Position numbers and translations under genes: made by a program. A stretch of DNA of 64,000 nt from an uncultured Prevotella sp. (GTDB lineage: Bacteria; Bacteroidota; Bacteroidia; Bacteroidales; Bacteroidaceae): NCBI GenBank assembly GCA_946614435.1, contig CAMOGW010000013.1, forward strand, positions 1-64,000, read 5' to 3'. How positions within the stretch are numbered: position 1 is the first letter of the stretch; every line of letters starts with the position of its first letter. The notes under the pieces were generated by a model. The model was not told where the DNA came from and did no database searches. It worked only from the letters and a program-made list of their open reading frames with translations. Of this stretch, positions 5,147 to 50,662 are shown piece after piece.

Positions 5147-6766
5147 ATGAACAAACAGAATCACTTCTCGCCCCTATGGCTCGCACTCAGTGCGGTAGTG
5201 GGCATCTTCATTGGCACTTTCTATGCCAATCATTTTGGCGGCAACAGGCTCAGCATCATCAATTCGGGAACGAACAAGCTGAACAACCTGCTGCATATCG
5301 TGGATGATCAGTATGTGGACACGGTCAACGTGGCCGACCTCGTAGAGAAGGCCATGCCGCAACTGCTGTCGGAACTGGATCCGCACTCGGTGTATATTCC
5401 TGCAAAGCAGAGACAGATAGCCGAAGACGACTTGCGCGGCTCGTTCTCGGGCGTGGGCATTGAGTTTGTCATCAGAAAAGACACGCTGCGTGTGCAGAAC
5501 GTGATTAAAAACGGACCTTCGGAACGGGCTGGCGTGCTGGCAGGCGACAAAATCGTGGAAGTGGATGACTCGGCGTTCGTAGGTAAGGACCTGACCAACG
5601 AGGAAGCCATGCACCGACTCAAGGGACCGAAGGACACGAAGGTGAAACTGGGCATCGTGAGGCGTGGCGAGAAAAATCTTCGCTACATCACCGTGACGAG
5701 AGGGGAGATTCCCATGAAGAGCGTGAACGCACTCTACATGCTGGATGAAGAGACGGGATATATCAGAATCAAGAACTTCGGAGAGAACACGTATCCCGAA
5801 CTGCTCATCGCACTGGCTCAGTTGGCTCAGGAAGGATTCAGCAATCTGGTCATCGACCTGCGTGGAAACACGGGCGGCTATCTGGGATCTGCCGTTCAGA
5901 TAGCGAATGAGTTCCTGCCCAAGAACGAGCTCATCGTATATACCGAGGGCCGTCGTTCGCCCCGTCAGGAATATCGCTCCGACGGACGCGGCAGCTACCA
6001 GAGCATTCCGCTCGTAGTGCTCATTGACGAGGTCACGGCTTCGGCCAGCGAGATTCTGGCAGGCGCTATTCAGGACAACGACAGGGGAACGATTATCGGT
6101 CGCCGGTCGTTCGGTAAGGGACTGGTGCAACAGCCTATCGAGTTCAACGACGGCTCAATGATGCGACTCACCATCGCCCGCTATTATTCGCCTTCGGGCC
6201 GCTGCATTCAGAAGCCCTACACCAGCGGACAAGATAAGGACTACGAGGAGGATTTGCTGATTCGTTATCAGCATGGCGAATTTTTTTCACAGGACAGTAT
6301 CAAGCATACAGGACCTGAGTTCAAGACTACGAACGGTCGTGTGGTCTATGGCGGTGGCGGCATCACGCCCGATATCTTCGTAGGCGAGGACACTACTGCC
6401 TATACATCTTATTATAAAGAGGCTTCTCTCTCGGGGCTGATTCTTCAGTTCTGCTACGACTATACGGATGATCATCGTGCTGAGCTCGCTGCCAATGAAG
6501 ACCGTATGGAACTGGAGAAGTATCTGAAGCGGCAGAATATCGTGGAGAAGTTCGTGAGCTATGCCGACCGTCAGGGACTGAAGCGCCGCAATCTGCTCAT
6601 TCAGCGTTCTTACCGACTGCTGGAACGCGCACTCATCAGCCGCCTTATCTATAATGTGCTGGACGAGCAGGCATGGATTGAGTTCCTGAATGCTGACGAT
6701 CCCGCTATCAAAGAAACACTAAAACTGTTTAAAGAAGGGAATGCTTTCCCGAAAGGGGAGAAATGA
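5147..6766 (+). CDS. S41 family C-terminal processing protease (Ctp/Prc-like)
   Basis: A 539-residue protein. Residues about 10-27 form one hydrophobic segment (WLALSAVVGIFIGTFYA), a signal anchor placing the enzyme in the periplasm. A PDZ domain follows (about 85-165, GVGIEFVIRKDTLRVQNV... NGPSERAGV). The S41 core has DLRGNTGG, the nucleophile Ser in TASASEIL (about residue 301) and the general-base Lys in RRSFGKGLV (about 324). The last ~120 residues are a helical tail common in Bacteroidetes homologues. It cleaves the C-termini of envelope proteins; the actual substrates cannot be told. Confidence 0.9.
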   Translation: MNKQNHFSPLWLALSAVVGIFIGTFYANHFGGNRLSIINSGTNKLNNLLHIVDDQYVDTVNVADLVEKAMPQLLSELDPHSVYIPAKQRQIAEDDLRGSFSGVGIEFVIRKDTLRVQNVIKNGPSERAGVLAGDKIVEVDDSAFVGKDLTNEEAMHRLKGPKDTKVKLGIVRRGEKNLRYITVTRGEIPMKSVNALYMLDEETGYIRIKNFGENTYPELLIALAQLAQEGFSNLVIDLRGNTGGYLGSAVQIANEFLPKNELIVYTEGRRSPRQEYRSDGRGSYQSIPLVVLIDEVTASASEILAGAIQDNDRGTIIGRRSFGKGLVQQPIEFNDGSMMRLTIARYYSPSGRCIQKPYTSGQDKDYEEDLLIRYQHGEFFSQDSIKHTGPEFKTTNGRVVYGGGGITPDIFVGEDTTAYTSYYKEASLSGLILQFCYDYTDDHRAELAANEDRMELEKYLKRQNIVEKFVSYADRQGLKRRNLLIQRSYRLLERALISRLIYNVLDEQAWIEFLNADDPAIKETLKLFKEGNAFPKGEK

Positions 6767-35526: not shown

Positions 35527-35904
35527 TTACTTACGCTTTTTACTCAAATTGATGGGCGTGCTCTTCGGGAAGACGATGCTGTAGGCCTTGTCGAGGGCTT
35601 TCAGGTCAACCTTGTAGTAGCTGATGCCCAGCCTCACGCTGACGATGGCCCTGAGCATTTCGCGATGCTTGCGCGGATAGAGCGAGGGCGGCGGCAACTC
35701 GTTCCAACCTTCCTGAGGCTCATCGTTGACTGCGGCCAGACGGCACACTTTCCAGATGAAATCGTCGGTGGCCTCGAAGCCGAACCATGTCTTCAGCACC
35801 CTGCGGATGCAGAAGCGCTTGCACTGACCTCCGAGGAGGCGCCTCGTGCGCTCCAGCCGAAGCCAGAGCTGCACAAAGCATTCTTGATTGTTCTCGATAT
35901 TCAT
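35527..35904 (-). CDS. Hypothetical protein at the left edge of the island
   Basis: 125 residues, basic and rich in Arg, Leu and Trp (CIRRVLKTWFGFEATDDFIW; ELPPPSLYPRKHREML). No domain is recognised and no membrane segment or signal peptide is visible. It lies downstream of the VirE/DUF3987 gene, separated by 100 bp that contain TGACC iterations. It is probably part of the same accessory module. Confidence 0.6.
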   Translation of the reverse strand: MNIENNQECFVQLWLRLERTRRLLGGQCKRFCIRRVLKTWFGFEATDDFIWKVCRLAAVNDEPQEGWNELPPPSLYPRKHREMLRAIVSVRLGISYYKVDLKALDKAYSIVFPKSTPINLSKKRK

Positions 35905-35943
35905 GGTTAATTACATGATAATTATATGTTGAAAAATAAAATT

Positions 35944-35977
35944 GATTTTGACAAATGACCAAATGACCATAATGACC
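35944..35977. repeat. AAATGACC iterations, left copy
   Basis: gattttgac-aaatgacc-aaatgacc-ataatgacc, three tandem 8-9 bp units. The first ~26 bases match the right-hand array at 49691 except for one missing C. It lies between two minus-strand genes of the island. Confidence 0.8.
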
Positions 35978-36004
35978 AGATGGCGGTAGCCAATTCTTCA
36001 CTTT

Positions 36005-38377
36005 TCACTTTTCACTTTTCACTTTCCTGTACCGTCCGTCCTCCGTCTTCACCACCAGCCCTTGCTTGCTCCAGTTCTTCAGCATCTGGCGCACGGTGTT
36101 GTGGTTCACACCAGCGCCCTTGATGGCCACCGAGTGCTGCATGGCCTGTTCGAAGGTGAACTGCATGTCCAAGCGCTCGTAGATGGAGTCGTTCTTGCCG
36201 CGTTTGAGGCGGTTGCCGCTCATATAGCCAGCGTAGTCACGACTGTTGAAAGCATTCTCTATGCGGTCGCGGAAGAAGTGGAGTGCGTTCTCCAGCAGCG
36301 AATCGGCTATCACGTCGTAAGCCTCCAGCATCGGCGGTGTCTGGGCTTTCAGGAGCAGCTCCTTCCATAGGTTAGGATACTGCTTCAGCCGCGCCTCGGC
36401 ACCATTCATGCCGTGCTTCTGAATCAGCCCCTCGCACACCTTGCATAGCATCAGACAGCAGGTCATGCGTTGTGCCGTCACACAGACACGAATGCGCTGA
36501 CGGGCACGCACCTTGTCGTCGTTCATCATCGTCTCTATGCGGATGCGCTCCACCCACTCGCGACCCCTCTGTTCCAGCTTCGGCAGCACCACCTCGCCTT
36601 GCATCAGCGGCAGCAGATGGGCCACCTGCTGTATGCGCTCCGTCTGTCGGGGGGTGAGCACGTAGGGCTTGTCCTCCAGCTTGGCAAACGTGTTGTCGGG
36701 TGTGCGGGCTACGGCTATACGGCTCTGGAACCCGTCGGTGTAGTTCGGCACTACGCGATAGAGGGCGTCGGGCGTGCCGCACATGGTGACGTTCCACAAC
36801 AAGTGCTCGATATGCACGTTCACTGCATCGGCCGAACGAGCCTCGCGGTCGAACTTCGAACCGTCGTAGCTTTGGCGCAGCATCACCGAGAAGTCGCTCA
36901 TGGCCGTGCGGAACTTCTGTGCCACCGTGTCGGCCTCGGGCGTGAACGAGAAGGCATGCTTGCCCTCCGTGTTGGCCAGTCGCTCGGCCACGTTGGCCAC
37001 CGTGGTGTTCAGGGTGATGAAGCGCACGGGCAGCTTCGGTTCCTCGGGTTGCTCCTTCTTGTTCTTCGCCGCCCGCTTCTTGGCGCGCCACTCGTCCTCC
37101 TGCATCTGGTACATCTTGTCAAGCGCCGCCACCTCGCTCATCCAGGCATCCACCACGGGGTCGATGTCGCCCTTGCCCGAGGCAAAGTCGCCAGCGATAT
37201 AGCTGATGAGGTTCAGCCCCTTCTTGCGACCGTGAACGTCGAGCACCACACCCGTAGCCAGCGCTCCTATGCACGGACAGATGGCCGTCACCACAGGCAT
37301 GGCCAACTGAGGCCCTACGGCATCGATGCTGTCGCGTATGCCTTGCGGCATTTTTCGAGCTGACAGTTGAGAGTTGAGGGTTGACAGCTGGTCGTCTTCG
37401 CCGTCCACCTCTTCTATTTGACCTCTACTGTCATCCTTCTTCTGCGCCTTGGCATTGATTTCCCGCAACGAGGCATTCATGAACCCCTTGTCGGCATCAT
37501 ACTTGTCGTAGAAGTAGTCGATGAGTTTCTGACAGTCCTCCGTAGCCGAGTAGTTAGGCAACCTTTCGGCCACCACCGCCCGCAGTTGCTGACGGCTCAT
37601 CAACTTGGCCACCCCCACCGACAGCACCGCCATCAGGTTCGTGTGCCAGTTATGCTCACCCCACACATCCATCCCGCTCGAACTCAAGCCTGCCTGCTGA
37701 GCGCAGAGGTCGAAGGCGGTAAGAGAGGCCGCTGAAGCCTGCTCGCATTCTTTCTCTGAACACGGATTTTTCGGATCTAACGGATTCGTTCGATTCGTGT
37801 TATTCGTGTTCGACTTTTCAGCCTTATCCGTTTCATCCGTCCTATCCGTGTTCGAAATCTCAAACATCTCGTCATCGAGGAAAATCAGGTCTTCCGCTGA
37901 ACCCGTCGTGGTGAAGAACACGCGGGTGATGTCCTTCGCCCCTGCGTCATATTCCACCTGCAGGAGCTCGCTCGCCCATTTCAGGTTCTCCTCCTGGCTC
38001 AGCTCAGGGCGACGACGGAACACGAGGTGGTAGCCTGCGCCTCGGGCGCTCAGTTCCAGCATCAGCAGCCCCAGCTCGTCCTTTTTCTGTAGGATGCGCT
38101 CACGTATGGGCTGCAACTCCTCTGGTGCTATGTGGTCGATGTCCATGCCGATGGTGGTGCTCATCGTCTTCGAGCCTTTCAGCGTGCCGTCGGCGTTGGG
38201 CAGACAGGAGTAGTTCATCTGGATGAGTCGGCGCTTCTGTGCCTCGTCGCCGCTGCGCACCGCCTTCACGATGGCCCGCTGCTCACCACCGCTGCGCAAT
38301 GACAGATAGTCCTCTCGCGTGAGGACGGGGCGCATCATCTTCGCCCCATCCTTGTAGTAAATCATGTGTACGCTCAT
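36005..38377 (-). CDS. VirE N-terminal/DUF3987 primase-helicase-like protein
   Basis: A 790-residue protein from the ATG at 38377, which overlaps the BRO stop as ATGA (the ORF-track start at 38461 is in BRO). The N-terminal ~180 residues match the BT4734/VirE-N type (primase-like; TTIGMDIDHIAPEEL, GAGYHLVFRRRPELSQEENL). Next comes an Asn/Thr/Asp-rich linker (about 190-220), then a DUF3987-type P-loop region (YIAGDFASGKGDIDP) and a C-terminal winged-helix-like end. These proteins mark Bacteroidetes integrated elements and are thought to act in replication; the function is unproven. Two stretches carry dispersed short-repeat DNA in frame. Confidence 0.8.
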   Translation of the reverse strand: MSVHMIYYKDGAKMMRPVLTREDYLSLRSGGEQRAIVKAVRSGDEAQKRRLIQMNYSCLPNADGTLKGSKTMSTTIGMDIDHIAPEELQPIRERILQKKDELGLLMLELSARGAGYHLVFRRRPELSQEENLKWASELLQVEYDAGAKDITRVFFTTTGSAEDLIFLDDEMFEISNTDRTDETDKAEKSNTNNTNRTNPLDPKNPCSEKECEQASAASLTAFDLCAQQAGLSSSGMDVWGEHNWHTNLMAVLSVGVAKLMSRQQLRAVVAERLPNYSATEDCQKLIDYFYDKYDADKGFMNASLREINAKAQKKDDSRGQIEEVDGEDDQLSTLNSQLSARKMPQGIRDSIDAVGPQLAMPVVTAICPCIGALATGVVLDVHGRKKGLNLISYIAGDFASGKGDIDPVVDAWMSEVAALDKMYQMQEDEWRAKKRAAKNKKEQPEEPKLPVRFITLNTTVANVAERLANTEGKHAFSFTPEADTVAQKFRTAMSDFSVMLRQSYDGSKFDREARSADAVNVHIEHLLWNVTMCGTPDALYRVVPNYTDGFQSRIAVARTPDNTFAKLEDKPYVLTPRQTERIQQVAHLLPLMQGEVVLPKLEQRGREWVERIRIETMMNDDKVRARQRIRVCVTAQRMTCCLMLCKVCEGLIQKHGMNGAEARLKQYPNLWKELLLKAQTPPMLEAYDVIADSLLENALHFFRDRIENAFNSRDYAGYMSGNRLKRGKNDSIYERLDMQFTFEQAMQHSVAIKGAGVNHNTVRQMLKNWSKQGLVVKTEDGRYRKVKSEK

Positions 38378-39066
38378 GCCAGTGCCTCCTTCTTTTCGAA
38401 CACCTCGTGCAGGAACTTGCGGCCCTCTTCCGTCCACACCAGATAGCGCTCTGTGTGCCATACGCCCAGTCGGTTGCGGCGGCTATGGGTGCGGCTCTTC
38501 GCATAGCCCATGCGGGCAAAGTCGGCATAGAGCATGTACTCGCCGCTCTGCCAATAGACGATGCTCAGGGCAATCAGCCAGCGGTACAGCTCGGAACCCG
38601 TCATGCCCAGCTCCTTAGCCACCTGCGTCGTGGTCACGCAGTCCACCGACAGCAGCACCTCGTCGCAGTAGTCAGCCTTCGAGCCCAGCAGTCGCAGCTC
38701 CTTCGAGCCCAGCAGTCGCAGCTCCTTCGAGGTCAGCTCGTAGCGTCCCGTCTGTCGGATGGCTGGCAGCACCTCTGAGGTCACCCACCGCTTGAACGCC
38801 TTCGCCTGTGGCAGCTGAGAAGAGAGGATGAGCGAGTAGAGACCGCTCTCGTTGATGAGAATAATTGCTCGTCTCTGACCTGATACGACAATTTGTCGGG
38901 TCAGCTTATCGTCATCATCAACGTGCATCTTAATAGCTTTCTGAGGATCGCTGTATCCCAGTGCCGTTGCCACGTCTTTGCCCACGAACATGATTTGGTT
39001 ATTCACTTGGCAAGTACGAATCTCGCCGAAAATATCACTTGTAAAGATTTGAATGTTTGTATTCAT
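38374..39066 (-). CDS. BRO family N-terminal domain antirepressor-like protein
   Basis: From the ATG at 39066 (MNTNIQIFTSDIFGEI), 230 residues; an ATG 16 codons upstream is possible. The N-terminal BRO-N domain (IRTCQVNNQIMFVGKDVATALGYSDPQKAI ... LILSSQLPQAKAFKRWVTSEVLPAIRQTG) is that of phage antirepressors. The C-terminal half is unassigned and may be an HTH (TTQVAKELGMTGSELYRWL). A 24-bp duplication gives SKELRLLG twice. It overlaps the VirE/DUF3987 start by 4 bp, so the two are translationally coupled. Confidence 0.85.
   Translation of the reverse strand: MNTNIQIFTSDIFGEIRTCQVNNQIMFVGKDVATALGYSDPQKAIKMHVDDDDKLTRQIVVSGQRRAIILINESGLYSLILSSQLPQAKAFKRWVTSEVLPAIRQTGRYELTSKELRLLGSKELRLLGSKADYCDEVLLSVDCVTTTQVAKELGMTGSELYRWLIALSIVYWQSGEYMLYADFARMGYAKSRTHSRRNRLGVWHTERYLVWTEEGRKFLHEVFEKKEALA
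38677..38724. repeat. 24-bp tandem duplication inside the BRO gene
   Basis: Two identical 24-bp units (cttcgagcccagcagtcgca...) encode the repeated octapeptide SKELRLLG in the linker between the BRO domain and the C-terminal half. A third partial unit (cttcgag) follows. Confidence 0.9.
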
Positions 39067-39173
39067 TTTGTTGAGTTGAATTTTGCGAGAAGAAGTTTCG
39101 GATTCTTTGGCCATTTACTCGAGAATATCCTCCTCGGCTTCAACTCAGGTTGTTTTTTGATTTTCTGTTTTTT

Positions 39174-39668
39174 TTAATTTTCCACGCTCCTTATTCTCCT
39201 CCTGTTGCCCTGCGGTCTCACCGCGAAGTGCACCCAGTAGGCGCAGCCCTTGTGCTCCAGCAGCAGCTCGTCGAACGCCTCCTGGCTGTCGTCGCTGATG
39301 TCCAGCAGGATGGTAGCGTAGCGCAGCGCCTGTTCAGGGCCGCAAACCCGAATGTCGGCTGCGCATCCCGTGAGGTGGTTGCTCGTTGTGGAGCCCCCCA
39401 CCGCCCTGTTCACCACCTTCGAGCGATACCCGCTGCTGACGATGATCGGGTCGTTTCCCTCGCCGTAGCGCACGTTCCATTCCTCGCGCAGCTTCTCCAG
39501 CCAGCCGCACAGTCGTCGCAGGTTCTCCACCGCCTCTTCTGAGGGCGTGTTGTCGGCTCCCCTTACACTCGTTCGCGTCATCTCCGCGAGCGTGAAGTGA
39601 GGAGTCAGTCTCGTGTGTTGTCTGTCTTTCTCCATGTCTTCTAATAGTTGTTCGTATTCAAGAGTCAT
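39174..39668 (-). CDS. M15 family zinc peptidase (D-Ala-D-Ala carboxypeptidase-like, phage-type)
   Basis: A 164-residue peptidase M15_3 domain. Metal ligands appear in SNHLTGCAADIRV (His and Asp) and near the C-terminus in YWVHFAVRP (His). The block IIVSSGYRSKVVNRAVGG is the substrate-side motif of this family. No signal peptide, as for many phage endolysins and element-borne peptidoglycan peptidases. Bacteroidetes VirE/HU modules commonly carry such a gene, so a structural role in the element is likely but untested. Confidence 0.85.
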   Translation of the reverse strand: MTLEYEQLLEDMEKDRQHTRLTPHFTLAEMTRTSVRGADNTPSEEAVENLRRLCGWLEKLREEWNVRYGEGNDPIIVSSGYRSKVVNRAVGGSTTSNHLTGCAADIRVCGPEQALRYATILLDISDDSQEAFDELLLEHKGCAYWVHFAVRPQGNRRRIRSVEN

Positions 39669-41936: not shown

Positions 41937-43382
41937 ATGGAACAGAAGCTTATTGCGAGAGACCGAGAGTGCTCTATGCTACGGGACTGCATGGAGTCAG
42001 ACCGTTCGGAATTTGTTATCGTTTATGGAAGAAGGCGCGTGGGAAAGACCTTCCTCATAGATCAGTACTTCAAGATGAATTATGATTTCAGTTTCGTGGG
42101 CTCGCATCGTTCCACGCAAAGGGTTCAACTACGTAACTTTGGGAAAGCCATGAAACAGCATGCAGGTTTAAAGACTGTACCAAAGTATGCTGACTGGTTT
42201 GATGCCTTTGATGCGCTGGAGGAACATCTTGGCAATCTTCCAGCTAACAGGAAAAAGGTTGTGTTCTTCGATGAAATGCCTTGGATAGACACACAAAAGT
42301 CAGACTTTGTTGAAGCTTTGGAGAACTTTTGGAATGGTTGGGCCAATCGTCGGAACGATATTTTTTTTGTAGGGTCTGGTTCGGCAACATCATGGATGGT
42401 TGACAAACTGATTGAAAATCAAGGGGGACTTCATGCTCGCATCACTGCAAACATCTATCTACGTCCCTTCAACCTTAAAGAGACGGAAGAGTACCTGCGC
42501 TCTCATCACTGCAAATGGGACCGATACCAAATAGCACAGTGTTACATGCTATTTGGTGGGGTTCCTTTCTACCTTAGTCTGCTGAAGACGAATCAGAGTC
42601 TTGTCCAAAATGTTGACAGGCTGTGCTTTGCCCCGAATGCCCCACTTCGCATAGAGTTTGAGGAACTATATACGGCACTTTTCAAACATGCAGACCAATA
42701 TATCTCTGTGGTGAAAGCTCTCAGTCTGCATAAAGAGGGTATGACGCGGAACGACATGATAAAAGTTCTGAAAATAGAGGGACGCAATCTCACCACAGTA
42801 CTTCGTAATCTGGAGCGTTGCGACTTCATCGCTAAAATGGCTCGCTTCCCTAACAAGTCAACCGATGCCATTTACAGACTGGTTGACTTTTACACCTTAT
42901 TTTATTATAAGTTCCTTGCCGAAGACCTGTCGGGCGATGAGCAGTGGTGGAGCCATAATTTCCAATCACATAGTGTAGAATCCTGGATGAGCAGGGCGTT
43001 CGAACTGCTTTGCCTCTGCCACGTAGGGCAGATAAAGCGGGCGCTTGGCATTTCCGGAATGGCAACCAGTGCTTCCTCCTGGCGGCAATTGGCTGACAAG
43101 GCCAATCAAAACTCGGCCAAGAGGGAAGGCGCACAGATTGACCTTATCATTGACCGTGCAGACCGCATGGTGCATCTTTGCGAGATGAAGTTCAGCGTCG
43201 GTCCTTATGAGCTTAAGGATGCATATGAAAAGAAACTACGTCAGCGGATGACAATTTTCCGTGAGGCCACGAAATGTACAAAAGCACTAGTGAATACGTT
43301 TGTTACGACATTCGGTGTGGCTGACGGAATGCACAAAAGCATTGTAAACAGCGAAGTGACATTAGATGAACTTTTCAATTAA
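41937..43382 (+). CDS. AAA/STAND-like ATPase with C-terminal DUF234 nuclease-like domain
   Basis: 481 residues. The N-terminal ATPase_2-type domain has Walker A VYGRRRVGKTFL (about residues 30-40) and Walker B KVVFFDEMPWID (about 101-112). A winged-helix part follows (about 265-320, KEGMTRNDMIKVLKIEGRNLTTVLRNLERC). The C-terminal DUF234 region has AQIDLIIDRADRMVHLCEMKFS, the D...ExK pattern of PD-(D/E)XK nucleases. Such proteins are common and uncharacterised in Bacteroidetes; a DNA-linked role is likely. Confidence 0.82.
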   Translation: MEQKLIARDRECSMLRDCMESDRSEFVIVYGRRRVGKTFLIDQYFKMNYDFSFVGSHRSTQRVQLRNFGKAMKQHAGLKTVPKYADWFDAFDALEEHLGNLPANRKKVVFFDEMPWIDTQKSDFVEALENFWNGWANRRNDIFFVGSGSATSWMVDKLIENQGGLHARITANIYLRPFNLKETEEYLRSHHCKWDRYQIAQCYMLFGGVPFYLSLLKTNQSLVQNVDRLCFAPNAPLRIEFEELYTALFKHADQYISVVKALSLHKEGMTRNDMIKVLKIEGRNLTTVLRNLERCDFIAKMARFPNKSTDAIYRLVDFYTLFYYKFLAEDLSGDEQWWSHNFQSHSVESWMSRAFELLCLCHVGQIKRALGISGMATSASSWRQLADKANQNSAKREGAQIDLIIDRADRMVHLCEMKFSVGPYELKDAYEKKLRQRMTIFREATKCTKALVNTFVTTFGVADGMHKSIVNSEVTLDELFN

Positions 43383-43628
43383 TCAAGCCCTTAGCAGCTC
43401 TACGTTATAGGGCAAGTAATTTTCGCAGAACACTTCTTTTCCACCTCATGCAGTGGACGCAAGTAAAAAGATGAAACGCATAATGGTGTTGACAAGCCAA
43501 GGCGGGCGGGGATGAAAACGAGGCACCCTCGTCCGCTTTTTGGTAGGTAAAAAAGTGTAAAATGAAGATTTTCTGAAAGAAAGTGGAGATTCTGCGTAGC
43601 GTTTTCACTCTTTCATCGTATTATAAGT
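43383..43628. other. Intergenic region before the sigma factor gene
   Basis: About 245 bp without an ORF. It ends in AT-rich sequence that must hold the promoter of the sigma factor operon, but no -7 box of the housekeeping type is obvious, which would fit autoregulation by the ECF factor. Confidence 0.35.
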
Positions 43629-44165
43629 ATGGAACGTCTGAAGTACATATCGTTGGTAGCGGAACTGCGGCAGATTGCTGTCAGGAGGGCTTTGGCGTTA
43701 CTTGACGAAAAGGAAGAGGCTGAGGACGTGGCCGGAGAAGTGCTGATAAGGTTATGGGAACGACATGAAGGCCTACGAGATAACGCCGATGAAATAAAGC
43801 ATATGGCCGACACGATGGCAAGGAACCTCGCGCTTGACATGTTGAGACACCGACGACGACATCCCATCCTGCGCATCTTCTATAGGCAAGAGGATGACGA
43901 TGAAGAAACGGGGAGCATTCCCGACGTACCCGATTCGCTAACGCCACAACATTACGTAGAGGACAAGGAGGCTGGCTGCATTGTCCAACGCGCCATGATC
44001 CAACTGCCCTACAACTGGAGGAGAATCGTGGAGATGCGCGAACAGGAAGACATGAGCTTTGCGGAGATTGCCCAAGTGCTGGGAACCAGCGAATCGTCGT
44101 GCCGAGGCATGATGTCGAAAGCACGCCAGAGAATGTTACAACTAATAAGTAAAATGACAAGATGA
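43629..44165 (+). CDS. ECF-type RNA polymerase sigma factor
   Basis: 178 residues. Sigma region 2 is at about 10-75 (LRQIAVRRALALLDEKEEAEDVAGEVLIRLWER, then NLALDMLRHRRR) and region 4 at about 120-172 (LPYNWRRIVEMREQEDMSFAEIAQVLGTSESSCRGMMSKARQRM). It would direct RNA polymerase to a small regulon, most likely including its own operon. The downstream membrane protein overlaps its stop (atgatga), the usual arrangement with an anti-sigma partner. Confidence 0.9.
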   Translation: MERLKYISLVAELRQIAVRRALALLDEKEEAEDVAGEVLIRLWERHEGLRDNADEIKHMADTMARNLALDMLRHRRRHPILRIFYRQEDDDEETGSIPDVPDSLTPQHYVEDKEAGCIVQRAMIQLPYNWRRIVEMREQEDMSFAEIAQVLGTSESSCRGMMSKARQRMLQLISKMTR

Positions 44166-44749
44166 TGGAAAAAGAATACATACAGAAACTACTCGACAGC
44201 TACATGGCTGCTGAAACGACCAAGGAGGAAGAACAGCTTCTTTCCGAGTATTTCAGCACCCACCGCGATATTCCGGCTGAGTGGCGCGAGTTCTCCATCC
44301 TGTTCAGAGGCATCAGGCAGTACGAGCAAAAGCCATACGTTTCGTACAGGAGGATAATCATAAAATGGAGTGCTGCAGCGGCTATGATTGCTTTCGTTTT
44401 CGGAATAGGATTGTCGTTGCAACATCAGGAGGAAACGTGCAAACCTTCGCATGTCATAGCCCAAACGAAGGATGTGCCTACGCCTGTTGCCATAGAGCCG
44501 CATCTTGAGACAATCGCGGAAGTGACACCAACCGTGGCGGAGATAACGGCAAAGCCGTCTCGCTCTGTCAGAACAGGAAAGTCGGCCAAACAGAAATCAA
44601 GGGATGTGGAACAAATGATGAAATTACTGGATGAAGCTGACATGGCCTTTTCGCAAGCTACGGTACGATGTGCCATTGACATTGAAGAGAGTATTCCGCA
44701 GAGTGAGGAACAAGAGGAAACGGACAACGAAACCAATATAATCATTTAG
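44162..44749 (+). CDS. Putative anti-sigma-like membrane protein
   Basis: 195 residues. The N-terminal ~60 residues are acidic and helical (YIQKLLDSYMAAETTKEEEQLLSEYF), followed by a single membrane helix at about 63-86 (IIIKWSAAAAMIAFVFGIGLSL) and a ~105-residue C-terminal part outside. This is the layout of anti-sigma factors that hold ECF sigma at the membrane; no zinc-binding HxxxCxxC motif is present. Overlap with the sigma gene supports the pairing. Function is inferred from topology and context. Confidence 0.65.
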   Translation: MMEKEYIQKLLDSYMAAETTKEEEQLLSEYFSTHRDIPAEWREFSILFRGIRQYEQKPYVSYRRIIIKWSAAAAMIAFVFGIGLSLQHQEETCKPSHVIAQTKDVPTPVAIEPHLETIAEVTPTVAEITAKPSRSVRTGKSAKQKSRDVEQMMKLLDEADMAFSQATVRCAIDIEESIPQSEEQEETDNETNIII

Positions 44750-44754
44750 AGCGT

Positions 44755-45252
44755 ATGAGATACTTTATATTTATTACATTCCTATGGGCTTTCGCAATGG
44801 TTAGTCATGCCCAGACACACGTCAGAAAAGCCATCGACAACATGTTGTCAGAACATCCCGAGTGGGTCATTAACTCCGGGAAAAGTGAGTCTGCTATCAA
44901 GTCTGGCACACAATCGAATCGCATCTACGAGCTGTCGATAACCGACCTGACGGCCATAGACTCCCTCCTGTCCGCTTTTGATGCAGACAAAATGGATGCC
45001 TACAGCTACATACGCACCTCTGCCGCCTACAATCAGGCCATGCAGAAACGTCGCCGGACCACTGTTACATTGCAGAACGGTGAGCGCTTGGAAAGCCATT
45101 CCACGGAATACAGCTTCGTGTCGCTGTCGGTCGTTGACTCAGAGAACAAGATTTACCGAACCAACTATATACTGAAATGGTATCAGCCAAAGGATGGCCT
45201 GGTAGAAGCAAAACTATACATACTCAATGGTCCAAGACCAAACAATCAATAA
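44755..45252 (+). CDS. Secreted DUF5024-like protein of the sigma operon
   Basis: 165 residues with a signal peptide (MRYFIFITFLWAFAMVSHAQ). The mature part starts with a helix (VRKAIDNMLSEHPEW) and has a beta-rich half ending in YILKWYQPKDGLVEAKLYILNG. It resembles the first half of the next protein in layout and spacing, so they are probably paralogues. Such proteins lie beside ECF sigma genes in Bacteroidetes; their role is unknown. The DUF assignment is from memory of the family pattern. Confidence 0.6.
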   Translation: MRYFIFITFLWAFAMVSHAQTHVRKAIDNMLSEHPEWVINSGKSESAIKSGTQSNRIYELSITDLTAIDSLLSAFDADKMDAYSYIRTSAAYNQAMQKRRRTTVTLQNGERLESHSTEYSFVSLSVVDSENKIYRTNYILKWYQPKDGLVEAKLYILNGPRPNNQ

Positions 45253-45271
45253 CAAATAAACTTAAGAAACG

Positions 45272-46189
45272 ATGAAAAAGATTACAATGACCATCATGGT
45301 GCTGGCCATCACATTGACGGCCTCTGCACAAACCACAGTAGATGACCTCATCGGCAAACTACTGAAAACCTATCCAAAGACCCCGTCACGGGAAATGGTT
45401 GACAAAGACCCTGCAACAGGGAAACTTCTGCGACACATCACGGAGTATAGTTTCCGTGACATCAAACCAAAGAAATTCACCTCACTAATCAGAGCCCTAC
45501 GAAATTCGCAAAACGGTTATTTCTTCCAAGAGAATACGCTTGACGGTGGCTATGTTTACGAACTTCGTGTAGCCGACACTGCTCCAAATTTCCGCACAGT
45601 CTATATACTACAGACGAAAGACAGCAATGCCGACCTGCACGTACTCTACGGCAAGATGCCTTACAGTGAGATGTCCACCAACTTCGAATACTCACTCGGC
45701 AAATACTATACGCTCGTCAACAAGAGCACAGGCGCGAAGCTGGGTATGTCGTTCGACTATAACTATCATGCCTGTGCTTACCGCGATTCCGTACCTTCAG
45801 GTCGTGGCCCCAATGGAATCGTCATCACCGACAAAAAGGTTTTCCGCTTTAAGTTCATCCCAACGGTCGTTGTTGACACCCGTTTCTCCGACACTGTGAA
45901 TGAGGACTGTTTCATCGTCACCGAGGACATGTTTGCCTTGGAGGATGGTTCAGAGACCACGGAGGGTCAGTGGCTTATGTTCCGCTACCTCGAAAAGAAT
46001 AATCCCTATCAGCGGTGGAAACTGATAGAACAGAACGGCACGGTCACCATCATCAACAAAGCCACAGGCCGCTGTGTTGACCTGGCCGGGGGCGATACTA
46101 AAGAAGGTGCCTCCATATTCAGCTACGACATCAACGACGACCCGCAAAGCAACGCCAACCAGAAATGGTTAATAGAAGAAGCAGAGTAG
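45272..46189 (+). CDS. Secreted protein with DUF5024-like N-domain and ricin-type lectin C-domain
   Basis: 305 residues: a signal peptide (MTIMVLAITLTASAQ), a ~110-residue domain like the previous protein (DDLIGKLLKTYPKTPS ... ADLHVLYGKMPY), and a C-terminal beta-trefoil part. The last repeat is clearly ricin-B/CBM13-like (VTIINKATGRCVDLAGG ... NANQKWLI, QxW motif), and an earlier one starts at YYTLVNKSTGAKLG. It probably binds a glycan outside the inner membrane. Nothing catalytic is visible. It is the last large gene of the sigma operon. Confidence 0.75.
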   Translation: MKKITMTIMVLAITLTASAQTTVDDLIGKLLKTYPKTPSREMVDKDPATGKLLRHITEYSFRDIKPKKFTSLIRALRNSQNGYFFQENTLDGGYVYELRVADTAPNFRTVYILQTKDSNADLHVLYGKMPYSEMSTNFEYSLGKYYTLVNKSTGAKLGMSFDYNYHACAYRDSVPSGRGPNGIVITDKKVFRFKFIPTVVVDTRFSDTVNEDCFIVTEDMFALEDGSETTEGQWLMFRYLEKNNPYQRWKLIEQNGTVTIINKATGRCVDLAGGDTKEGASIFSYDINDDPQSNANQKWLIEEAE

Positions 46190-46268
46190 CTGGTAAGGAA
46201 AACCTAAAAACGGAGTTTTGATTTTCATAAGCTCAAAACGAGTTAGTAAATAATAGAACCCGGGACAG

Positions 46269-46300
46269 GCATGGGCCGCAGCGATGCACCCCATGCTTTT
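46269..46300 (+). terminator. Possible terminator of the sigma-lectin operon
   Basis: gcatggg / cccatgc (7-bp stem, 14-nt loop) followed by TTTT, 80 bp after the lectin gene. The stem is short, so confidence is moderate. Confidence 0.45.
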
Positions 46301-46323
46301 ACCCGATAAAGACGAAAAGAACA

Positions 46324-46416
46324 ATGAACAAGCAATCCATCATCCCCACACTGCAACCAGGCAACGTGGCAATCGTAAAGATTGGTGAGAAGAGTGTGAA
46401 GATAATAATGAAATAA
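46324..46416 (+). CDS. Possible 30-residue peptide gene
   Basis: ATG at 46324 to TAA at 46414-46416 encodes MNKQSIIPTLQPGNVAIVK plus 11 residues ending in KIIMK. It is too short for the ORF track. The upstream sequence aaagacgaaaagaac could serve initiation. No family is recognised. It may be chance; its position after the lectin operon's hairpin makes it only weakly suggestive. Confidence 0.3.
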   Translation: MNKQSIIPTLQPGNVAIVKIGEKSVKIIMK

Positions 46417-46679
46417 CACAAGCCGCAGGGGACTGACGCCTATTCAACAGAAACAATCGTTGCAGCAGAAAGTCCTTCATCCAGTCCCAACATAAAAATG
46501 GAGATGCTCGTTTGACAATGTAACGGAAATACTTTCAGGGTTGTGATAATGTCTCCGTCTCATGTGCATAATTCTGGTAATTACCCAGAATCTGTTCAAT
46601 ATGGATGACTTCCGAACAAGAATCCCATGTCACACCACCGCCCATCAGGTACCATTTTTCGCGTTCCTTGACGGGAACA
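46417..46679. other. Gene-poor stretch with a possible coding remnant on the minus strand
   Basis: No plus-strand gene. On the minus strand 46535-46678 stays open (..DVPVKEREKWYLMGGG.. to ..YAHETETLSQP) with protein-like composition but no start near its beginning. It immediately follows the AlbA-type remnant in another frame. It may be the tail of another decayed gene; the family is not recognised. Confidence 0.3.
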
Positions 46680-47550
46680 TCATTCTTTGTTTAGCAACTC
46701 TAACGCTATACGCTTCTCTTCTTCACTCAGTTCTTCAATCATGTGATTAACCTTTTCCGTCAAGTCACTTGACTTGGAATTACACGTCATATTTGCAAGC
46801 AGTGCCCTACCGCTTTCTGTAAGAAAATATCTTTGGTTGGGGCTTGTTGGTTTGTTCGGCAACGTCATACCAATAATTTGTGCTTCTATCAGAGGACTTA
46901 CATATTTGGCTTTGAACTTCGTTGTATTAGACCACCGATACAATTCTTTGAGCTCGGTTATGGATTTGGGTTCTTGAAGAGCTATGAACAATTTTGCAAC
47001 TTCATCCCAGCTTAGTCCCGTCTTAGTCCCAACTTGCTCCCAACTTAATCCCTGTTTAATTCCGGCTTGATTATGTTCAATCTGTTGGTCCTTTGGCTCA
47101 TATTCCATTGAGTAAATGGTGGTCATAAACTGGCTTATTGTTGATTTGAACACAGGCTTCAGCTCTTCTTTATAGCCATCTAAGGCTTTGGTCTCGTTGC
47201 AAATACGTTTTAATCCGCTGCCTCGCTTTTCCATATAATCTAACTGAGCCATTACGTCAGCCAAAATAGGATTTCTTCTATCCGATGATATTTCCTCAAG
47301 GGGTAAATCTTGCACTATCTGCCCACTATACATACCACCAGGAGAGGTTATCACCAGCCTGTCAACATATATGTCAAGATGAACTTCGCTTCCCATTACT
47401 GTATAGTCACGATGGATGAAGTGGTTTACCATTGCTTCAAGAACGGCGCGTTCCGCATACTCAGGTTTGTTCTTTCTACCATCAGGTAATTTCTCCCAGC
47501 CTTTCTTCGTGTTAGACTTCACAAAGTTCATAGCTTTACGAGCATCCCCG
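46680..47550 (-). pseudogene. AlbA/RecG-like ATP-binding regulator, N-terminus missing
   Basis: The frame (ORF track 46680..47570) holds the C-terminal part of the 'AlbA_2/HATPase_c_4' regulator family: GWEKLPDGRKNKPEYAERAVLEAMVNHFIHRDYTVMGSE, then ITSPGGMYSG and RNPILADVMAQLDYMEKRGSGLKRI, and a winged-helix C-end. Full-length members are about 480-550 residues with an N-terminal AlbA_2 domain, which is absent. The first ~10 residues of the ORF (MACQYLY...) are antisense to a YoeB toxin fragment, so the gene was truncated by a recombination near 47530-47550. Confidence 0.75.
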
Positions 47551-47704
47551 TACAGGTACTGGCAAGCCAAAGCAACTCTCCGCTGACCGAGCAGGCCAGT
47601 GGCGACGCAAGATTAGCGACAAGCATCGGCTGATTTACGAGATTCACGACACCGAGGTTGTGGTGCTCGTGATATCTGCCTACGGCCATTATGATGACAA
47701 GTAA
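47534..47704 (+). pseudogene. 3' fragment of a YoeB/Txe family toxin gene
   Basis: In the plus frame ending at TAA 47702-47704 the translation is LYEHPRTGTGKPKQLS then QWRRKISDKHRLIYEIHD and VLVISAYGHYDDK. This matches the C-terminal two-thirds of YoeB mRNA interferases (GTGKPexL, WSRRIxxxHRLVY, GHY near the end), including the C-terminal catalytic His-Tyr. The 5' part and the YefM antitoxin are missing; upstream in frame is a stop (47531) and AlbA-type sequence. Confidence 0.75.
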
Positions 47705-47746
47705 CTGTTTCATGCTTTCAGATTAACACACAAGGGGGCATTGACC

Positions 47747-48308
47747 CTACGCACCATACAATCTTCGCTGCAATTCAAAGTAGTGATCACGAATGTCGGA
47801 AACAGACATTCCTAACCTCTCCTTTGCGTCACTCATAGAATTGAACTTAATAGTGATAAAGGTCTTCAGGTTGTCAGAGCCAAGTTCCTTGAATCCATTG
47901 TTGATATAGTATTGCAGGATGAGGTTGTCGAACTCTCGCTGTCCTTGCTGGGAATGATATACTCTCCTTTGCCGTCCTTGATACCCATGTCGATAAACCA
48001 TATCTCATCGCCGTTGGTACTATAGGTATAGCGAATCTTCAGCGCATCGGCATAGAGCTTTGCTTGGCCCACGCGCCTTCAGACACGTCTTTCTCATCGC
48101 TCTTGGCTTCTATTACAGCAAGTTTTATACCCTTGTATTCAAGGATATAGTCAGCCTTCTTCGGGTTCTTGTTGCCAGTAGTTGTAATACGACCAGGCGC
48201 AATATAAGCACTTTGCTCCACAAGAATCTTACTTCCTGGAACAATCCCCCAGCCAGCATCCCTTAGCTTGGGGTCTATCTTATTGAATCGTGTCTGCGCT
48301 TCGTTCAT
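47747..48308 (-). pseudogene. Decayed type I restriction endonuclease gene (hsdR)
   Basis: Three frames join into an HsdR relic. 48039-48308 has the N-terminal nuclease domain (TRFNKIDPKLRDAGW ... KKADYILEYKGIKLAVIEAKS, with the ExK of the PD-(D/E)XK site). After a frameshift near 48065, QAKLYADALKIRYTYSTNG continues (ORF 47866..48072). Then 47747-47950 resumes with the extreme C-terminus (QREFDNLILQYYINNGFKELG ... RDHYFELQRRLYG). The whole helicase core, several hundred codons, is gone. No hsdM or hsdS is present. Confidence 0.8.
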
Positions 48309-48348
48309 AAGATAAAATGTTTATCCAAATAGAATAATAGACATTAAA

Positions 48349-49158
48349 CTACATGGTCTGATTCGCCTTAAGGTTGTTTAATCTCATCTTGAAAATATTA
48401 TTCGTATCTATCACAAATTTAAGGAAGGAATCAATTTCTTTTAGATTTGCTTCGTTGTTATGTAATCTATTTACTGATATTCTTATTTTTTCAAGATCTC
48501 TATTTTTAACATGTCTTTTAATATTCATTAATTCTTCTTCATGAATTTCCTTCAACTTATCTAGTAAGTTATTGATTTCTTGTTGTTTTGTCATATCAAT
48601 AAGAGCATAGTCTTCTATCGAATGCTCTAACGCAATTTGAACTAAAGCGGTGATGGAATTATTAGCTGCTTTCTGTTTTAAATTCATCTGCTGCATTTTT
48701 ACTACAAATTGAGACAGAACGGTTACAGCATTATTGATATCTTTAAAATTAGTATTTTCTAAAGAGGAAGTTTCCAGACCTTCATATATTGTACAAAAGT
48801 CAAGTGTGGCCTTTTGAAAATCCTTCATAATCTTTATTTCTCCTAACGAATCATTATCTGCTTTGAGCTCTTCTGGAGAAAAATCTTTCCTTATTTGTGC
48901 TATCTTATCAGTAATTTCATCCTTAATTGTTCTCTTTGGTCCAATCCCTATAATAGCAACAATGATACCAATGATGGTTAAAAGAACCATTAGAGTAGAA
49001 TAGTTAAAGACATACTTTTTCCAGAAGTTTTTATTCTCTGTTTGACTCTTTTTTTCTTCAAGCTGTTTTGTAAACTCAGCTTGATTTAGCAGATTACCTG
49101 TAGGGGCATTGATAATAGTTGCCGTTTTGTTGGTTTTCTTTTGTTTGTTCTTTTTCAT
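48349..49158 (-). CDS. Unknown membrane-anchored helical protein
   Basis: 269 residues, AT-rich codon use unlike its neighbours, suggesting transfer. A Lys/Asn-rich N-terminus (MKKNKQKKTNKTATI), one or two adjacent membrane helices at about 47-71 (YVFNYSTLMVLLTIIGIIVAIIGIG), then a ~195-residue helical region with coiled-coil character (QEINNLLDKLKEIHEEELMNIKRHVKNRDLEKIRISVNRLHNNEANLKEIDSFL). No family recognised. It stands alone between defence-gene remnants. Confidence 0.65.
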   Translation of the reverse strand: MKKNKQKKTNKTATIINAPTGNLLNQAEFTKQLEEKKSQTENKNFWKKYVFNYSTLMVLLTIIGIIVAIIGIGPKRTIKDEITDKIAQIRKDFSPEELKADNDSLGEIKIMKDFQKATLDFCTIYEGLETSSLENTNFKDINNAVTVLSQFVVKMQQMNLKQKAANNSITALVQIALEHSIEDYALIDMTKQQEINNLLDKLKEIHEEELMNIKRHVKNRDLEKIRISVNRLHNNEANLKEIDSFLKFVIDTNNIFKMRLNNLKANQTM

Positions 49159-49575: not shown

Positions 49576-49728
49576 GTGGTCAAAGTGGTCAAGGTCAAAA
49601 TGGTCATTTTCATTTTCGGATTTGGTCATTTGCTCACTATATATAAATATAATATTTATTATATAGTGGCGGATTTTGACACTAGAAAACGATTTTGACC
49701 AAATGACCAAATGACCAAATGACCGCGA
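49576..49728. repeat. AT-rich dyad flanked by GGTCA / TGACC iterations
   Basis: Left arm: five GGTCA copies (49578, 49587, 49593, 49602, 49624). Centre: a near-palindromic AT block (actatatataaatataatatttattatatagt, about 49637-49668). Right arm: tgaca then four TGACC copies spaced 8-9 bp (49691-49724). Iterated sites in inverted orientation around an AT-rich core resemble an iteron origin or a compound operator. The ORF-track entry 49474..49767 over this region is not credible as a gene. Confidence 0.75.
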
Positions 49729-49791: not shown

Positions 49792-49799
49792 TACCTTTG
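49792..49799 (+). promoter_or_regulatory. -7 box of the HU-smalltalk operon
   Basis: TACCTTTG about 205 bp before the HU-like ATG, giving a long leader. No clear -33 TTTG. Confidence 0.55.
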
Positions 49800-50003: not shown

Positions 50004-50504
50004 ATGATTTACATTAAGAAGTACCAGAACAACAACAAGAAGATGATTAACGCCTACGGCAAGTGGTACGGACGCATCATCCACACCGAGACCCTCGACC
50101 TCGACGACCTGTGCGACCACATCGCATCGCACGGCACCATCTTCACTGCCGACGTGGTGAGTGGCACCGTGAAGAAGTTCGTGCAGTGCATCCAGGAACT
50201 GCTCCTGGAGGGCAAGAAGGTGAAGCTCGACGGCATAGGCACGTTCTACCTCGCCCTGCAGACCACTGGCGCCGAATGCCTCGAGGAATTCACCATGGGC
50301 AACGTGAAGGGGGTTCGCCTGCGCTTCCTGCCCGACCAGGGCGGCAAGTCGCGCTACACCACTGCAGCCCTGTCACGCGTGGCAAAGCTCTCATCTGTAC
50401 TGCCTGGCAGCACTCCCACCGACGACGAGGAGGGCAGCGGTAGCGGCAACAGCGGCGGCCAGCAAGGCGGAGGCACCAGCGGAAGCGTGGAGGAGCAGCC
50501 GTAA
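50004..50504 (+). CDS. HU-like DNA-binding protein of the VirE module
   Basis: 166 residues. The first ~125 form an HU/IHF-like domain of the Bacteroidetes 'HU-related' type: KKYQNNNKKMINAYGKWYGRIIHTE, LDDLCDHIASHGTIFTADVVSGTVKKFV, then VKLDGIGTFYLAL. The last ~35 residues are a Gly/Ser/Asp-rich tail (DDEEGSGSGNSGGQQGGG). High GC content contrasts with the AT-rich sequence upstream. It is followed by the smalltalk peptide, the standard pair. In most such modules the VirE gene lies close by, here it is 11.6 kb away. Confidence 0.85.
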   Translation: MIYIKKYQNNNKKMINAYGKWYGRIIHTETLDLDDLCDHIASHGTIFTADVVSGTVKKFVQCIQELLLEGKKVKLDGIGTFYLALQTTGAECLEEFTMGNVKGVRLRFLPDQGGKSRYTTAALSRVAKLSSVLPGSTPTDDEEGSGSGNSGGQQGGGTSGSVEEQP

Positions 50505-50560: not shown

Positions 50561-50662
50561 ATGAATAGAAACGTATGGAGCACAATCCTAAATGTCGTGA
50601 TTACGGTGCTTACTGCCATAGCTACAGCACTTACGACTACCTCATGTGCGGGGCATTTCTAA
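50561..50662 (+). CDS. Smalltalk protein, 33 residues, missed by the ORF track
   Basis: ATG 50561 to TAA 50662 encodes MNRNVWSTILNVVITVLT then ALTTTSCAGHF. A polar start, one hydrophobic helix and a TTSC end are the pattern of the 'smalltalk protein' family found just downstream of HU-related genes in Bacteroidetes elements. The Cys near the end resembles a short lipobox (TTSC). Its function is unknown. It is followed by a strong terminator. Confidence 0.85.
   Translation: MNRNVWSTILNVVITVLTAIATALTTTSCAGHF

Follow-up and report, generated by a model that had tools for sequence, protein, structure and literature searches.

A conserved inverted-iteron dyad, likely a replication origin, in VirE/DUF3987 islands of Prevotella

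The window analyzed here is a 64,000-nt stretch of DNA from an uncultured Prevotella sp. It contains an island with genes for a VirE/DUF3987 protein and an HU-like protein, an inverted-repeat element (the dyad), and a single arm of the same element (the half-dyad or solo arm). The features of the island are as follows, with the basis of each in brackets.

35527-35904, minus strand: conserved gene of approximately 125 aa directly after the solo arm (homologous islands)
35940-35978, minus strand: solo arm (half-dyad) immediately past the 3' end of the VirE/DUF3987 gene (similarity to the dyad, homologues)
36005-38461, minus strand: VirE/DUF3987 protein of 818 aa, the proposed initiator (domain matches, model)
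36023-36196, minus strand: C-terminal winged helix, residues 756-813 (model, alignment)
36089-36091, minus strand: Arg791 codon; this residue of the recognition helix covaries with an iteron base (alignment, model)
37169-37192, minus strand: P-loop-like motif GDFASGKG, residues 424-431 (alignment)
37832-38380, minus strand: AEP-like primase domain with DxD and S..H motifs (motifs, model, fold and profile matches)
38374-39114, minus strand: Bro-N/KilAC antirepressor-like gene of the module (domain match)
39174-39668, minus strand: M15 peptidase (endolysin-like) of the module (domain match)
41937-49158, no strand assigned: variable cargo between dyad and module (PDC-S27, sigma factor, AlbA/Fic-like, HsdR fragments)
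49576-49727, plus strand: complete dyad, an origin-like element in which inverted GGTCA iterons flank an AT palindrome (sequence, homologues)
49578-49628, plus strand: left iteron array, five GGTCA with spacings of 9, 6, 9, and 22 (direct reading)
49635-49668, no strand assigned: AT-rich palindromic core CACTAT...ATAGTG, 34 bp (direct reading, cross-island comparison)
49696-49724, minus strand: right iteron array, four TGACC with a spacing of 8 (direct reading)
49792-49799, plus strand: candidate HU promoter box of the Bacteroidetes -7 type, TACCTTTG, on the downstream side of the dyad (direct reading, inference)
50004-50504, plus strand: HU-HIG/HU_rel DNA-binding protein (TIGR01201), transcribed away from the dyad (family match)
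50561-50662, plus strand: smalltalk protein (NF033879), following HU in this island (family match)

In the left array the GGTCA units start at positions 49578, 49587, 49593, 49602, and 49624, and in the right array the TGACC units start at 49696, 49704, 49712, and 49720. The first-pass annotation had described five GGTCA and four TGACC copies bracketing an AT-rich near-palindrome; direct reading confirmed this, with a palindrome of 34 bp, and the HU-like and VirE/DUF3987 neighbors it had named were both recovered as family matches. The nine units lie within 155 bp, while the best of 200 dinucleotide-preserving shuffles of the window had five, and chance clustering was rejected on this basis. 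As a single strand, the dyad is predicted to fold into an imperfect hairpin (z = -5.4). Within the available part of its own genome (56% complete) the iteron pattern was found at two sites only, the dyad and a copy at 35944.

Further genomic analysis, mostly of metagenome-assembled genomes with one per species, revealed that the element is widespread in the genus. A 21-base pattern taken from the right arm was present in 17 of 200 same-genus genomes (2 for the backwards control), and the whole 155-bp element was matched in 72 of 398. Profile searches yielded 72 distinct full copies of approximately 145-160 bp, at one to three per genome, with a palindromic core of variable length and sharply delimited ends, (C)GTGGTCA...TGACC(G/A)C. 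The common arm spacings are 9-6-9 and 8-8-8, each of which totals 24 bp. Among the full copies compared, the spacers between facing iterons are non-complementary, yet iteron spacing is conserved, a pattern more in keeping with a bound protein than with a hairpin in its own right. The GGTCA/TGACC block of the window is one copy of a conserved imperfect palindrome of approximately 150-160 bp that belongs to mobile-type islands of gut Prevotella. One locus (L162) carries two tandem dyads (5540-5696 and 5768-5926) and one arm upstream of a single HU gene.

The surroundings of 111 distinct dyads were scored with profiles for diverged HU proteins and for VirE. HU was found within 1.5 kb of 33 dyads and VirE within 25 kb of 27, and both were transcribed away from the dyad in every case (33/33 and 27/27). 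Moreover, wherever a dyad had both genes they lay on opposite sides of it (15/15). A reading based on gene clustering, in which the dyad was unlinked to HU, was overturned by the profile for diverged HU proteins. The shared layout runs from HU, pointing outward, across the dyad to variable cargo, then to a Bro-N/KilAC or 142-aa gene, DUF3127, and VirE/DUF3987, followed by the half-dyad arm, the 125-aa gene, and the M15 peptidase. The link to HU/smalltalk modules proposed earlier stands as a conserved position upstream of HU in fixed orientation, but such dyads also occur at unrelated loci that have neither HU nor VirE, an observation that the first-pass annotation had itself named as evidence against its proposal and that counts in part against it.

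The cargo of the islands includes candidate defense genes, namely the ATPase PDC-S27 of the window (41937-43382), PDC-S02/YhcG, type IIG restriction, and IetA-like genes. At 47747-48308 of the window, a type I restriction R subunit is split into separate short frames with HSDR_N and EcoEI_R_C matches, a decayed defense gene. Regulator genes of the Bro-N/KilAC, S24, and WYL types were also found in the islands. RAYT/Y1-like genes with an MPDHLH motif and no Pfam match are present at three loci (L080:10831-12003, L211:707-2053, and L142:3276-4400), in the same relative orientation to the dyad, and may ride as island cargo. As judged from gene content, the presence of lysozyme, antirepressor, and S24 genes points to a unit of the phage-satellite type or of prophage origin. 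Integrase, capsid, and phage packaging or interference genes were not recognized in the annotated part of the cargo. When VirE was searched against plasmid, phage, and viral-contig sequences, the sole match was MT839699.1 ("Bacteriophage sp."), an unverified 4-kb "phage" record from human feces. It carries DUF3127, VirE, and an arm of the GGTCATTAA class, with VirE and arm arranged as in the islands, and has no terminal repeat or structural genes. The record is a hint that DNA from these islands is present in sequence collections labelled as phage.

Based on sequence and structural models, the VirE protein is an AEP-like primase joined to a DUF3987 helicase-like ATPase and a winged helix. The N-terminal model is of high quality (pLDDT 95), and Prim-Pols of the AEP type were on top when it was compared with PDB folds, at a sub-threshold E of 2e-3. 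Residues D80/D82 and S111..H118 are invariant or nearly so among homologues, and the N-terminus matched phage VirE primase-helicases (E 1e-7); its match to BT4734-like_N (PF08800) was below threshold. A sequence search of the PDB with VirE gave no match. DUF3987 was identified by Pfam (E 3.6e-13), while the ATPase domain modeled poorly, with no confident fold prediction. The last 60 residues form a predicted winged helix (pLDDT about 85) with R791 in helix 3. Among homologues the N-terminal and middle modules (residues ~28-345) are swapped, whereas the ATPase part is approximately 80% identical.

The second iteron site of the window, at 35944-35977, has 94% identity to the right arm of the dyad. 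The recurrence at this position that the first-pass annotation reported is real, and is better described as a half-dyad that immediately follows the VirE/DUF3987 gene, a position that is conserved; in most close VirE homologues the arm lies at the stop codon or just past it. Low-complexity runs (CACTTTT, GAATTAAGAGTTAA, GGATAATT) separate the VirE stop codon from the arm, or stand in place of the arm, both in the window (35998-36034) and at three other loci (L188, L178, and L200). Five loci with a distant VirE C-terminus (L286, L287, L288, L284, and L375) have the same HU-dyad-VirE layout without a 3' arm, and their dyads are of the TTGCAG, TTCAG, and GTAACA classes.

Across islands the iterons fall into GGTCA, AGTCA, TTGTCA, and GTGTCA classes, as assigned by a simple NGTCA count. 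Islands outside the GGTCA class carry AGTCATT, TTGTCAAT, GTGTCACGAA, or GTGTCATTA at arm and dyad alike, and the core CACTAT..ATAGTG is kept in both A-class and T-class islands. In three genomes, islands of two classes coexist, GGTCA with AGTCAT (G291), TTGTCAAT with GTGTCACGAA (G307), and GGTCA with GTGTCATTA (G157), and each arm matches its own dyad. At one locus (L369) 48 bp are identical between the arm and a dyad half. Over 18 islands, arms shared 383 7-mers with their own dyads, whereas permuted pairings averaged 170 and never exceeded 300 (p <= 5e-6). When only the 10 islands outside the GGTCA class were counted, 212 were shared, versus 94 under permutation (p <= 5e-6).

The iteron class was further found to covary with one residue of the VirE recognition helix. 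For this comparison 80 further VirE loci were added, including those of the isolates Prevotella sp. tf2-5, Prevotella sp. tc2-28, and P. communis E15-14. Among 83 distinct genes, the residue corresponding to R791 was compared with the base preceding GTCA in the arm: Gln occurred with A in 10 of 10, Arg with G in 55, and His, Lys, Ile, or Thr with T in 10 of 11. The exceptions were three GTGTCA arms, in which Arg goes with T, and two ties; the sole His scored with A belongs to an island whose dyad is of the T class. Arg-G and Gln-A are classical protein-DNA contacts. A tree built from the ATPase part, with the winged helix excluded, requires at least 15 changes of iteron class and at least 19 of the residue. 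Supported independent pairs on the tree were few, with no discordant pairs for G/R and A/Q, and the phylogeny-corrected pair test on these few gave a median p of 0.06 for G/R and 0.25-0.5 for the others, with 0.5 for A/Q. As the arm and the winged-helix codons are adjacent, block exchange could account for part of their correlation. The helix residue also tracks the class of dyads kilobases away, which plain helix-arm linkage leaves unexplained, and block exchange would not produce the match to dyads at a distance of 2-12 kb. By inspection of the alignment, the N-terminal and middle modules do not track iteron class.

Taken together, these sequence comparisons point strongly to VirE as a protein that very probably binds both the dyad and the half-dyad through its winged helix. 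The VirE-N protein had been proposed, along with the HU-like protein, for a DNA-binding assay; VirE is indeed implicated, and the helix-iteron covariation places the DNA-reading part in the C-terminal winged helix and not in the VirE-N domain. The dyad itself is probably a cis-acting initiation site, most likely a replication origin, of Prevotella chromosomal islands that are phage-satellite- or plasmid-like. The parallel with SaPI Rep and SCC Cch2 would argue, with moderate confidence, for the same role. In the proposed mechanism, the winged helix would read the iterons (in the window copy, Arg791 would lie opposite the first G of GGTCA), and the two inverted arrays would load VirE on both flanks of the AT-rich palindrome. 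The core CACTAT..ATAGTG is probably the unwinding element; after VirE loading it would melt or extrude, and VirE would unwind and prime at the opened palindrome, perhaps assisted by HU and the DUF3127 protein, which is a guess. The half-dyad 3' of VirE may be a second VirE binding site that acts in copy control or autoregulation, or is a former origin. Some dyad genomes, including one that is 99% complete (G281), have no close VirE.

Many dyads are found outside this setting. Neither HU nor VirE was detected on the stretch examined for 66 of the 111, some of which lie between housekeeping genes. The clearest hot spot is the uvrC-dtd gap (L213, L214, L215, L217, L219, L225, L229, L238, L078, L152, and L157), where, immediately before the dtd promoter, approximately 8 of the roughly 26 species spanned have a solitary dyad. 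These dyads represent at least six iteron classes (GGTCA, TTGCAA, CACAG, TGACAG, GTGACA, and TTGCAG), and at L238 a TGACAG dyad is nested within TGTAAC arms. Comparison with possible empty sites yielded other dyads and dyad-free gaps, the latter too diverged for a target duplication to be read. The solitary dyads may be relics, mobile origins, or elements with a role in trans.

Other explanations of the dyad were considered. The earlier suggestion that the dyad serves the VirE/HU module as an origin or as a compound operator is partly supported by the fixed orientation toward HU and VirE and by the iteron-helix covariation, with which an operator role is also compatible. As a compound operator alone, which we regard as unlikely, the dyad and arm would be bound by VirE or another island protein that controls the gene after VirE and the divergent promoters of HU and the cargo, without any start of replication. 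The dyad does lie between divergent transcription units, the arm precedes the 125-aa gene, and regulators (Bro-N/KilAC, S24, WYL) are among the island genes. However, the candidate HU promoter is ~70 bp past the array, the covariation points to a primase-helicase-like protein as the binder, and the conserved AT palindrome would be superfluous, although operator and origin roles could coexist. The solitary dyads and the several classes in the uvrC-dtd gap, along with the nested dyads of L238 and the frequent contig ends near dyads, would suit a recombination or mobility site, that is, a MITE-like or attachment element moved in trans, with the island copies as landing or end sites. The dyad ends are inverted repeats, as in MITEs; no target-site duplication was seen by eye, no transposase was identified, and neither recombinases nor transposases show a consistent linkage to dyads. 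With only one to three full copies per genome, and with island dyads fixed in place and orientation, this reading is rather improbable, and mobility alone would leave the arm-dyad-helix code unaccounted for.

Two further readings seem very improbable. One takes the dyad for a REPIN belonging to a Y1-like transposase (RAYT), as RAYT-like genes lie 40-96 bp from the dyad in L080, L211, and L142. It was rejected as a general cause because RAYT-like matches are absent from at least 14 of the dyad genomes, and other RAYT loci have no dyads. Moreover, the RAYT-like proteins have no Pfam assignment, and the dyad arms are tandem iterons rather than GTAG-tagged hairpins. A structured RNA or terminator, to which the long imperfect hairpin (z of -5.4) might point, is equally hard to credit, as there was no Rfam match, the spacers of paired iterons are non-complementary while iteron spacing is kept, and the iterons covary with a protein helix. 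A replication origin read by VirE is preferred over these alternatives.

VirE/DUF3987-HU-smalltalk modules are present in many Prevotella genomes, and no origin or mechanism was found to have been assigned to them in the literature covered, which was incomplete; novelty is not proven by this absence. A defined DNA site with its likely reader turns the module into a testable replicon family, and the dyad/arm system explains repeated "iterons" scattered over Prevotella genomes. It also offers what is probably a natural code of protein-DNA recognition that exists in many orthogonal versions. It is conceivable, if unlikely, that nature thereby holds a large collection of mutually orthogonal origin-initiator pairs in which one helix residue sets one iteron base, with origins also spreading as free-standing dyads to core hot spots such as uvrC-dtd, possibly as parasitic or accessory origins used in trans or as island landing sites. 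Since the islands carry candidate anti-phage genes, their replication bears on the spread of defense genes in gut bacteria.

Several known systems resemble the proposed one. In SaPI Rep and SCC Cch2, the C-terminal domain binds short iterons just downstream of its own gene (PMC7581432). The SaPI (PICI) Rep-ori system would share with the islands a self-loading helicase initiator, C-terminal recognition of short iterons, and a site directly 3' of the gene (PMC7581432). Traits of this type present in the island are an ATPase core (P-loop-like motif and DUF3987, with no confident fold model) with a C-terminal winged helix, iterons matched to the initiator (by covariation and arm-dyad matching), and an iteron site just past the 3' end of the initiator gene. 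In contrast to SaPI, the ATPase family of the island initiator is DUF3987, the full dyad lies 2-16 kb upstream beside HU so that only a half-site follows the gene, and SaPI-type integrase, capsid-remodelling, and terminase genes were not recognized in the annotated part of the island. SCCmec Cch2 and its putative origin likewise have 5-nt iterons downstream of a primase-associated helicase and bound by its C-terminal domain (PMC7581432). They differ in the D5/Primase_Cterm helicase, the separate CCPol-MP primase, and the direct-repeat iterons, with inverted repeats being dispensable. P4 alpha satellites also fuse primase and helicase in one initiator (PMC7145576), but the sequence is unrelated and the origin layout is different; they were set apart without direct comparison. 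The BrickBuilt MITE of Porphyromonas gingivalis is an intergenic repeat-bearing element in Bacteroidetes as well, but it is a 23-nt tandem minisatellite with 19 copies per genome (PMC4596501) and not an inverted iteron dyad. The domain order is shared with the AEP-PriCT-(VirE/DUF927/DUF3987)-WH primases of mobile genetic elements and the BT4734-like AEP family. Kazlauskas et al. predicted that the winged helix of AEP-PriCT-DUF3987-WH proteins recognizes the origin (PMC5862659). No origin was known there, and to this prediction the island adds a matching iteron dyad and the covariation between residue and base.
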